Below are positions 5,932-14,540 of a stretch of DNA of 64,000 nt, one piece after another. The first letter of the stretch is position 1. Every line of letters begins with the position of its first letter. The notes below the pieces were generated by a model. The model was given only the letters and a program-made list of their open reading frames with translations, had not been told where the DNA came from and searched no databases. Source of the DNA: Desulfuromonadales bacterium (GTDB taxonomy: Bacteria; Desulfobacterota; Desulfuromonadia; Geobacterales; Pseudopelobacteraceae); the NCBI GenBank assembly GCA_013349325.1, contig DUZX01000006.1, positions 1-64,000 of the forward strand. The letters are read 5' to 3'. The position numbers and the translations under genes were made by a program.

Positions 5932-8900
5932 ATGCCACAGAATATTATTTCGGCACTATCACACCGGATACTGGTGCTGGACGGCGCTATGGGTACCCAG
6001 TTGCAGGCCTGTAATCTGACGGCCGATGATTTTGGCGGCGCTGAATACGAAGGGTGTAACGAACATTTAACCTTTTCACGTCCCGACGTCATTGAGCGGG
6101 TCCACCGGGCCTACCTGGAAGCGGGAGCCGATATCATCGAGTCGAACACGTTTGGCTCAACCAACATCGTTTTGGCGGAGTATGGTCTGCAGGATCAGGT
6201 CTACGAACTGAACCGGCAGGCGGCCCTGATCGCCCGGCGGGCCTGTGATGCCTTCTCGACCCCGGAAAAACCGCGCTGGGTGGCTGGGTCGATAGGACCG
6301 ACTACGCGTACGATCTCTGTAACGGGTGGCGTGACCTTTGAACAGCTGGTACAGGCTTTTCGTGAACAGACGCTGGGACTGCTGGCTGGCCGGGTTGATC
6401 TGCTGCTGCTGGAAACAGCTCAGGATACGCTGAATCTGAAAGCGGCAGCCGAGGGGGCCCGTTTGGCTTTTGATGAGTGCGGCCGACGTGTTCCGATCAT
6501 GGTTTCCGGCACGATTGAGCCGACTGGCACCATGCTGGCCGGACAGAATGTCGAGGCGTTATATATCAGCTTGGCCCATCTGGAAGAGAGCCTGGGACTG
6601 ATCAGTATCGGATTGAACTGCGCCACCGGTCCGGAGTTTATGGCCGATCACCTGCGGACGCTGTCGGAACTGGCCCGTTGTCACGTTTCGGTCTATCCTA
6701 ATGCCGGCCTGCCGGATGAAAATGGCCATTACGCCGAATCTCCCGAATCGCTGGCCGCTAAATTGTCCCGTTTTGTCGATGAAGGCTGGCTCAATATCGT
6801 TGGTGGCTGCTGTGGAACATCACCGGCTCATATCGCGGCTATCTCCAAAATGGTGGCCGGTCGCCCCCCCCGGCGTCCCTCAACCATTCGCCGAAGGGCT
6901 GTATCCGGCATCGAGCCCTGTTTCATTGAAGATGACCTCCGCCCGCTGCTGGTGGGTGAGAGAACTAATGTAATCGGCTCGCGCAAGTTTAAAAACATGG
7001 TCGTCGCCGAACGCTTTGAGGAGGGGGCCGAGATCGCCCGCGATCAGGTCAAGGGGGGCGCTCAGGTGATTGACGTCTGCGTAGCCAACCCGGATCGGGA
7101 TGAAGCGGCCGACATGGTACGACTGCTTGAGTTTCTGCCGCGCAAGGTGCGGGCACCGATTATGATCGACTCAACCGATCTACAGGTCACGGAACTGGCC
7201 CTGCAGCGGCTGCAGGGCAAATGCCTGCTTAATTCGATCAATCTGGAAGATGGCGAAGATCGTTTCGCCAAGACCGCCCGGCTGCTGCACCATTATGGCG
7301 GTTCCGTGGTGGTTGGATGCATCGATGAAGACCCGCAGCATGGCATGGCCATTACTCGTGAACGCAAACTGGCGGTCGCCCGGCGATCCTACGACTTGCT
7401 GGTCAACAAATACGGTCTGCGTCCGGAAGATCTGATCTTCGATCCGTTGGTCTTCCCGGTCGGAAGCGGTGATGTTTCGTATATCGGATCGGCGGTTGAA
7501 ACCATCGAGGGGGTGCGGCTGATTACGGAAGCATTTCCGGAATGCAGCACGATACTGGGAATCTCCAATGTCTCCTTCGGTCTGCCGCAGGCGGGGCGCG
7601 AGGTATTGAACGCCGTATTCATACATCACTGCGTCAAGGCTGGTTTGACCTACGCAATTGTCAACACCGAGAAACTCGAGCGCTATGCGTCAATTGATCC
7701 CGAAGAGCTGCGTCTGGCGGAAGATCTGATCTACTGGCGCGGTGAAGATCCGGTCGCCGCATTTGCTGCCGCTTTCCGCGACAAACAGCAGACCGTCCAT
7801 ACTCCGGCCGCCGATCTGCCGATCGATGAGCGGTTGCCACGCTACATCATCGAGGGGATCAAGAACGGCCTGACCGCCGATCTGGATATCGCTCTGGCAC
7901 GCGGTGACAAACCGCTGGAAATCATTAACGGAGCGCTGATGGCTGGCATGGCCGAAGTTGGGCGACTGTTCAACGACAATCAGCTGATTGTGGCCGAGGT
8001 TCTGCAATCGGCCGAGGCGATGAAGGCTGCGGTGGCCTATCTGCAACAGTATCTTGAGAAGGGTGAAAGCTCCAGCAAGGGGAAGATGTTGCTGGCGACA
8101 GTTAAGGGGGATGTTCACGATATCGGCAAAAATCTGGTCGAGATTATCCTCTCCAACAACGGTTTTCAAGTAGTCAACCTGGGGATCAAGGTCGGTCCGG
8201 AAACGCTGATCGAAGCGGCATTGCGTGAACAGCCGGATTTCATCGGCCTCTCCGGTCTGCTGGTCAAGAGCGCCCTGCAGATGGCAACGACGGCTGCCGA
8301 TCTGAAAGCAGCCGGCATCAGTGTGCCGCTGATGGTTGGTGGTGCGGCACTTTCACGCAATTTTGCCGACAGCCGTATCGCTCCACAGTACGGCGCTCCG
8401 GTTCTATATGCCAAGGACGCCATGGCCGGTCTTGAGCTGGCGAATCGCCTGGCCGATCCGCTGCTGTGCGGACCACTGCTGGAGGAGCTTGCAGTGCGGC
8501 AGCAGAGTGCAGCTACCAGCCTTCAGACCAGTCGGACAGGTCCGACTGGTCTGAAGGCTCCGACAAGCCTGGCACTTGATGCTCCAATCCTTCCGGCGCC
8601 TGATTTTGAGCAGCACATCCTGCGCGATATTCCACTCAAACAGGTACTGCCATACCTGAACCGGCAGATGCTCTACACGAAGCACATGGGGCTGATCGGT
8701 TCTGTAGAGAAACTGCTGTCGGCTGGCGATGAAAAGGCGCTCAAGCTGCACAGTGCTGTTGAAGAGATGCTGGTCCGTATCGAGCGCGAGCAGTTGATCA
8801 GACCGCAGGCGCTCTACCGATTCTATCCGGCCAATGCGGTTGGCAACGATCTGATCCTGTACGCACCGGACGGTACCGAAAGTGAAGTCATGCGCTTTAC

Positions 8901-9387
8901 GTTTCCGCGACAGGCGGCCGGTGAACAGCTCTGCGTGGCCGATTTCTCGCGTCCTCTCAAGAGCGGAGAGCGCGATAACATGGCTCTGTTTGTGGTTACC
9001 TGTGGTCAGGGTGTCCGTGAGCAAGCCGAGGCGATGAAGAACTCCGGCGATTATCTGAATTCACACCTGCTACAGGCTCTGGCGCTAGAGCTGGCCGAGG
9101 CGACTGCTGAGTTCCTGCACAAACGGATTCGTACATCGTGGGGCATCATTGATGATCCCTCTTTGAGCATGAAACAGCTCTATAACGCCGAATATCAGGG
9201 CATTCGGGTCTCCTTCGGCTATCCGGCCTGCCCGGAGCTCTCCGATCAGCAGCAGTTGTTTCGTCTGTTGGGGCCGGAAACAATCGGCGTCCAGTTGACC
9301 GAAGGAGACATGATGGATCCGGAAGCCAGCGTCTCGGCGCTGGTCTTCCATCACCCGCAGGGTCGCTATTTCGATGTGTCCCGCTGA
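5932..9387 (+). CDS. metH: Cobalamin-dependent methionine synthase
   Basis: Transfers the methyl group of 5-methyl-tetrahydrofolate through cobalamin to homocysteine, giving methionine in the cytoplasm. The 1151-aa protein holds all four modules. The homocysteine domain has LDGAMGTQLQ, with zinc ligands Cys230 and Cys293-Cys294 (GGCCGTS). The pterin domain is about 335-590. The cobalamin module has the cap and DVHDIGKN, with the cobalt-ligand His729. The C-terminal reactivation domain has the AdoMet-binding RVSFGYPACP near 1091-1101. A perfect palindrome is inserted in frame at residues 863-876, in the linker between the cobalamin and reactivation domains. The start ATG has a good ribosome site (GGAGG, 8 nt upstream). 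The gene is slightly shorter than the E. coli enzyme (1227 aa). It stands alone between the restriction locus and an unrelated membrane-protein gene. Confidence 0.97.
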   Translation: MPQNIISALSHRILVLDGAMGTQLQACNLTADDFGGAEYEGCNEHLTFSRPDVIERVHRAYLEAGADIIESNTFGSTNIVLAEYGLQDQVYELNRQAALIARRACDAFSTPEKPRWVAGSIGPTTRTISVTGGVTFEQLVQAFREQTLGLLAGRVDLLLLETAQDTLNLKAAAEGARLAFDECGRRVPIMVSGTIEPTGTMLAGQNVEALYISLAHLEESLGLISIGLNCATGPEFMADHLRTLSELARCHVSVYPNAGLPDENGHYAESPESLAAKLSRFVDEGWLNIVGGCCGTSPAHIAAISKMVAGRPPRRPSTIRRRAVSGIEPCFIEDDLRPLLVGERTNVIGSRKFKNMVVAERFEEGAEIARDQVKGGAQVIDVCVANPDRDEAADMVRLLEFLPRKVRAPIMIDSTDLQVTELALQRLQGKCLLNSINLEDGEDRFAKTARLLHHYGGSVVVGCIDEDPQHGMAITRERKLAVARRSYDLLVNKYGLRPEDLIFDPLVFPVGSGDVSYIGSAVETIEGVRLITEAFPECSTILGISNVSFGLPQAGREVLNAVFIHHCVKAGLTYAIVNTEKLERYASIDPEELRLAEDLIYWRGEDPVAAFAAAFRDKQQTVHTPAADLPIDERLPRYIIEGIKNGLTADLDIALARGDKPLEIINGALMAGMAEVGRLFNDNQLIVAEVLQSAEAMKAAVAYLQQYLEKGESSSKGKMLLATVKGDVHDIGKNLVEIILSNNGFQVVNLGIKVGPETLIEAALREQPDFIGLSGLLVKSALQMATTAADLKAAGISVPLMVGGAALSRNFADSRIAPQYGAPVLYAKDAMAGLELANRLADPLLCGPLLEELAVRQQSAATSLQTSRTGPTGLKAPTSLALDAPILPAPDFEQHILRDIPLKQVLPYLNRQMLYTKHMGLIGSVEKLLSAGDEKALKLHSAVEEMLVRIEREQLIRPQALYRFYPANAVGNDLILYAPDGTESEVMRFTFPRQAAGEQLCVADFSRPLKSGERDNMALFVVTCGQGVREQAEAMKNSGDYLNSHLLQALALELAEATAEFLHKRIRTSWGIIDDPSLSMKQLYNAEYQGIRVSFGYPACPELSDQQQLFRLLGPETIGVQLTEGDMMDPEASVSALVFHHPQGRYFDVSR
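8518..8559. repeat. Perfect 42-bp palindromic element inside metH
   Basis: Two perfectly complementary 20-nt arms (8518-8537 and 8540-8559) flank a 2-nt spacer (AG). The element stays in frame and encodes SLQTSRTGPTGLKA, residues 863-876 of MetH, in the cobalamin-reactivation linker. The coding sequence around it reads normally. The perfect symmetry points to a palindromic mobile element rather than to selection on the protein. Confidence 0.9.
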
Positions 9388-14498: not shown

Positions 14499-14540
14499 GA
14501 CACAAAAAAGGCAGCCCACGTGGGCTGCCTTTTTTGTGTC
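14499..14540. terminator. Bidirectional intrinsic terminator between rhlE and folD
   Basis: A perfect 42-bp palindrome with centre GGCAGCCCAC/GTGGGCTGCC, flanked by A6 on the left and T6 on the right. It can end transcription from both convergent genes. Confidence 0.95.

Follow-up and report, generated by a model that had tools for sequence, protein, structure and literature searches.

Within the stretch of DNA analysed here (hereafter the window, 64,000 nt), the gene for a conserved enzyme holds a long perfect palindrome in its reading frame, which raises the question of how such a structure arises and persists inside a coding sequence. The host ORF lies at 5932–9387 on the plus strand and is presumably metH, encoding a cobalamin-dependent methionine synthase of 1151 aa; homologs align over residues 1–1151 with identities of at most 85%. 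The palindrome occupies 8518–8559, and its arms (8518–8537 and 8540–8559) are exact complements with AG between them, which confirms the two in-frame 20-nt arms and the 2-nt spacer given in an earlier, sequence-only reading. The peptide encoded across it is SLQTSRTGPTGLKA. Such a structure is far above chance expectation, as arms of at least 20 nt with loops of 0–10 are expected about 7e-7 times per 64-kb window of the same composition. The computed RNA fold of the 42 nt is −37.2 kcal/mol, and that of the surrounding 101 nt is −53.6 (z −5.95). The G+C-rich hairpin and T run of an intrinsic terminator are not found in combination in the metH copy, which is followed by CCGACAAG, while one intergenic sister copy is followed by GGCTTTT. 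The AGCC...GGCT termini are found again at G000:C1:201427-201468, where G000 is the window's own genome and G001 upward are genomes of relatives. The window contains a second perfect 42-bp palindrome at 14499–14540 (21-nt arms, no spacer, A and T tracts), which differs in sequence (GACACAAAAAAGGCAGCCCAC/GTGGGCTGCCTTTTTTGTGTC) and looks like a two-way terminator, and at 211–329 C runs followed by G runs form imperfect inverted repeats.

The metH palindrome belongs to a repeat family, dispersed through the genome, of period-9 arrays with the unit TCNGACNNG. The feature proposed at 8518–8559 does exist, but its real extent is larger, comprising five 9-nt units at 8523–8567: unit 1 is TCAGACCAG (8523–8531), unit 2 TCGGACAGG (8532–8540) and unit 3 TCCGACTGG (8541–8549), all on the plus strand and found by pattern match, followed on the same strand by unit 4, TCTGAAGGC (8550–8558), in which two fixed positions deviate, and unit 5, TCCGACAAG (8559–8567), of which only the first base falls inside the 42 bp. 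These last two are in register with the G008 run, and the run is best described as four or five units of TCNGACNNG. Each unit is built on the core palindrome GTCNGAC, so that a run read on the opposite strand gives almost the same sequence. Two-unit matches begin in register at 8523, 8532 and 8541, and the search for further copies in the genome that had been suggested from the sequence gave 45 two-unit matches in G000, against 5 for a reversed control pattern.

Arrays of this family are not confined to one type of location. Among 23 arrays read in G000, 16 lie in open frames, with 6, 1 and 9 in frames 0, 1 and 2, and 7 are intergenic, with the genes and frames being crude longest-ORF guesses. 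Selection for Ser-Asp repeats at the protein level was rejected, as arrays are present in all three frames. The earlier suggestion of selection on DNA or RNA structure is supported, the constraint being on nucleic acid rather than on protein. With both strands summed, array counts are 60 in G000, 39 in G008, 34 in G023, 17 in G052, 31 in G053, 89 in G055 and 120 in G057, with the last two genomes carrying long runs in which neighbouring units are near-identical. Counts among the 58 relatives are patchy and mostly 0–5 outside the high-count genomes; G012 gave 12 matches, largely from one array. Three units occur in 16 of 395 sampled genomes of the phylum, from scattered families. A viral origin was considered and rejected: at least 120 viral stretches contain three units, but some resemble collagen-like repeats, and the viral matches L164, L219 and L204 may be Gly-Pro-Thr coding repeats of this kind rather than arrays. 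A different dispersed repeat of about 30–50 bp, 85–100% identical between copies, was seen at L159 2713–2749 (query 1564–1600), and this occurs in G000 and many genomes of the same genus.

The history of the metH copy can be read from its relatives. For this comparison 39 same-genus genomes were searched, of which 28 gave a match and 27 were aligned, with G025 left out. The metH linker is identical in length in G000, G008, G023, G030, G031, G003 and G035, and the extra length between continuous flanks that a recent insertion would leave is not seen. Equal length in six same-genus relatives indicates that the array is not an insertion, which contradicts the proposal of a recent, 14-residue insertion in metH. 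The sequence-only reading had called for metH to be compared between relatives, and had regarded the same sequence in distant metH genes, diverged like the rest of the gene, as evidence against a recent event; the linker of G008, where the units recur in a register shared with G000, comes close to this. Five of the six same-length relatives keep the gene without an intact run, and in G030, G035 and others the linker looks like a decayed period-9 run. The earlier idea that the linker tolerates the sequence is supported. The array is old in the metH linker, with dating inside this lineage limited because even the nearest metH proteins share no more than about 85% identity. The metH array is most likely a tolerated passenger.

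How such arrays change could be followed in a second gene, which we take to be cobB. The stretch before its VIEGxMG motif is shortest in G031, G030, G015, G009 and G002, 9 nt longer in G003, G008, G017 and G034, and 18 nt longer in G000 and G023, while G033 and G007 fall outside this series at 6 nt over the shortest. In this partial comparison (22 genomes tried, 13 alignable, 9 dropped by a motif filter), orthologous cobB arrays appear to vary by whole 9-nt units, with two exceptions. Within the unit, six of nine positions are fixed and three vary. For orthologous cobB and metH arrays taken together, 6 of 60 fixed positions have changed compared to 15 of 30 variable ones (p 5e-5), in a test where the G000 arrays were picked by motif and are not fully free of selection. 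The symmetry of the metH arms was assessed using 31 four-unit arrays from G000, G023 and G008, each with at most two mismatches and represented by one window, with 3-mismatch arrays excluded. Matching pairs of variable positions number 48, compared to 48.8 after shuffling, and 51% of shuffles contain at least one fully matched array among the 31. The perfect arms of the metH copy are expected by chance as a by-product of self-palindromic units, and need not mark a special event as had been supposed. As variable positions pair without excess, a template-switch correction perfecting the arms was also rejected.

Clusters of arrays in G023 and G140 pointed to a gene whose product joins a four-helix bundle to a suffix domain, referred to here as the suffix protein. 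It matches the profile TIGR02436 and, for the G023 protein, TIGR04258 (E 6e-21), and has a weak match to PF05635 that is under the cut-off. A search by sequence found no structure for the protein, and a single-sequence structure model was unusable at a pLDDT of 41. Its two domains are separated by a linker that holds the array, and further arrays are frequent at the gene ends. Arrays within or beside the suffix gene were found in G023, G448, G052, G055, G057, G077 and G140, as well as in G145, G177, G219 and G228, which were read only for their arrays. In the phylum sample, 6 of the 15 array-positive genomes other than G000 have such a suffix-gene array, and no suffix gene was seen near the fetched arrays of the other nine. 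Relatives of the suffix protein are present in 21 of 58 genomes, and a search for viral relatives of the four-helix family found one protein, the linker of which is without repeats. Type I restriction-modification islands or their remnants, with relBE, were observed at L159 (1767–2933), L296 (4720–12710) and L384; in relatives the island is placed between cobB and the downstream gene, and a Hsd homolog lies near 11 of 30 four-helix-suffix loci.

Many of the related proteins have a different period-9 repeat in this linker, and the linker repeats fall into four classes, assigned by eye. Class I has the unit TCNGACNNG with its GTCNGAC core. Class II is GATCNGWCN. Class III is GTCCAYNNN, found partly in both orientations to give a large hairpin, and class IV is ACNTATNNG. 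The strict class patterns are unmatched in G041 and G048 (class IV) and in G016 (class II). In the class III linkers L438, L449 and L450, GTGGAC units are followed by GTCCAC units, so that a long hairpin could fold in the mRNA. On a tree of 30 proteins built without the linkers (where the G023 and G140 rows lack the suffix part and a second G037 protein is excluded), the four classes are explained by three changes, which is the minimum; the shuffled mean is 16.0, and 0 of 200 shuffles were equally low. The repeat class of the linker follows the clade of the protein, and G023, G055 and G057 each encode two suffix proteins, which belong to different clades and carry different repeat classes.

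Repeats located elsewhere in the genome also tend to accompany the protein. Outside the gene, class I arrays are found in 4 of 4 genomes with the protein and 3 of 54 without (exact p 8e-5). Using search patterns for classes II and III that were themselves taken from suffix-protein linkers, external class II repeats were found in 4 of 6 genomes that encode the protein, compared with 2 of 52 that do not (exact p 5e-4), and for external class III repeats the corresponding figures are 2 of 5 and 3 of 53 (exact p 0.054). Across the 58 genomes, class II matches are limited to G002, G021, G024, G028, G043, G044 and G051, with a control of 0 throughout; class III matches are found in G019, G022, G027, G035, G053, G054, G055 and G057, for which the reversed control also matches in G010, G031, G047, G054 and G055. 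The combined exact p for classes I–III is 2e-8, a value that ignores relatedness (G055 and G057 belong to one genus). At the 22 external loci read for class II (12) and class III (10), the arrays are intergenic or, in every frame, within other genes, and no four-helix gene was present in these stretches; gene calls here and in the phylum sample are again crude longest-ORF guesses. In the class I external set, a selection of 34 loci, L135 gave a weak protein match (E 8e-4) that is probably the array itself. The repeat is confined to the gene or its edges in the protein-encoding genomes G028, G035, G027 and G054, and likewise, among the matches listed, in G077, G145, G177, G219 and G228. The window's genome seems not to encode the protein alongside its repeats: at E 1e-12, no suffix protein was found in G000, which is 99.96% complete, nor in G008 or G053, which both contain arrays. 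In G448 the suffix gene, of about 740 bp, is placed between hsdR and relE. The same flanks abut in G000 with the suffix gene missing, so either the gene was lost from this junction or it was never there.

Taken together, we consider it fairly probable, on comparative grounds, that the palindrome belongs to a dispersed period-9 family in which each four-helix-suffix protein recognises its own repeat and aids its spread, expansion or persistence, with the metH copy being tolerated. From the co-variation of clade and repeat we infer that the suffix protein may recognise its cognate repeat, as DNA or as an RNA hairpin; that it would also help the repeat to spread, expand or persist where tolerated, such as in a protein linker or an intergenic gap, is a further and more tentative step. 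The metH copy would then be a tolerated passenger with arms made perfect by self-palindromic units. A bolder version is possible but somewhat doubtful: each suffix protein would recognise and propagate its own repeat, with the copy in its gene serving as a badge, and would give rise to in-frame arrays across the genome; clades would have switched units several times, and the metH palindrome would be a fossil left after loss of the protein. Passive growth as a minisatellite, by slippage of a self-complementary unit, with a suffix linker that is merely tolerant and a protein that is uninvolved, would fit the whole-unit length steps in cobB, the extended stretches of almost identical adjacent units in G055 and G057, and the several array-bearing genomes that have no protein. 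We find this unlikely, as slippage does not explain the six fixed and three variable positions, the tracking of protein clade by repeat class, or the different repeats of paralogs within one genome.

Two functional explanations were also weighed against protein-assisted persistence of a tolerated repeat. Judged from sequence patterns, it is rather improbable that the array is a regulatory site, used by the protein to control the gene that encodes it as well as further genes including metH and cobB. Many unrelated genes bear arrays in any frame, array presence differs among species, and arrays remain where the protein is missing, even though the suffix gene itself has an array in its linker and often at its ends, and orthologs retain the fixed positions. 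The cobalamin connection shared by metH and cobB would suit such regulation but may be coincidence. The other explanation, drawn from the sequence-only reading, is a recently inserted hairpin under selection because it delays the ribosome between the domains of MetH, for which the strong predicted fold and the interdomain position speak. This now appears highly improbable: the linkers of relatives are equally long, the G008 array is in register, five of six same-length relatives keep the gene without an intact run, and chance accounts for the perfect symmetry. The insertion part is largely refuted.

Bacterial repeats of this kind are usually catalogued with no cause named, and the joint change of protein clade and repeat sequence provides a candidate protein for each of the four repeat classes. 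The data further show that 9-nt arrays can enter conserved enzymes with the reading frame intact, and they carry a warning that a perfect palindrome within a gene need not mean a recent event. A literature search, made without most subscription journals or supplements, did not find this repeat or a suffix protein as a repeat partner.

REPIN/REP sequences are short dispersed palindromic repeats with a cognate RAYT, a Y1 transposase. The present family resembles them in having short dispersed palindromic repeats and an apparent cognate protein in few copies, but the partner here is a four-helix-bundle protein and the repeats are period-9 arrays that are also intragenic. A RAYT partner was rejected, as PF01797 counts over the 58 relatives do not track the arrays: the family is missing in array-bearing G052 and G053, and G023 has one copy. 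We propose, by analogy, that protein and cognate repeat may follow a RAYT-REPIN-like logic with an unrelated protein. Rickettsia palindromic elements are palindromic repeats tolerated in frame inside proteins, as here, although each of them is one longer inserted element, and not an array that is built from 9-nt units and lengthens by whole units. According to the accessible part of its description, Geobacter metallireducens has repeats with units of 7–8 nt, and a multicopy element in which a heptanucleotide with the consensus GGACCGG is repeated four times in tandem occupies 49 genic and intergenic sites (PMC2700814). These are alike in occurring in related bacteria as short tandem units, both genic and intergenic, but they have another unit, with a period of 7 rather than 9, and that part of the source names no partner protein (PMC2700814). 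The suffix protein falls in the same superfamily as TIGR02436 and the proteins of 23S rRNA intervening sequences (PMC4990558, PMC10053308; both as far as their accessible text goes); such intervening sequences have been termed selfish elements in Coxiella (PMC4990558). It differs from those proteins in having TIGR04258, and none of the loci read places it within a 23S rRNA gene; the accessible text describes no array for them (PMC4990558, PMC10053308). The four-helix superfamily, in the accessible text, resembles Avd of diversity-generating retroelements (PMC10053308), and if our reading is true, distant relatives of the Avd protein would be involved in a new type of protein–repeat partnership.
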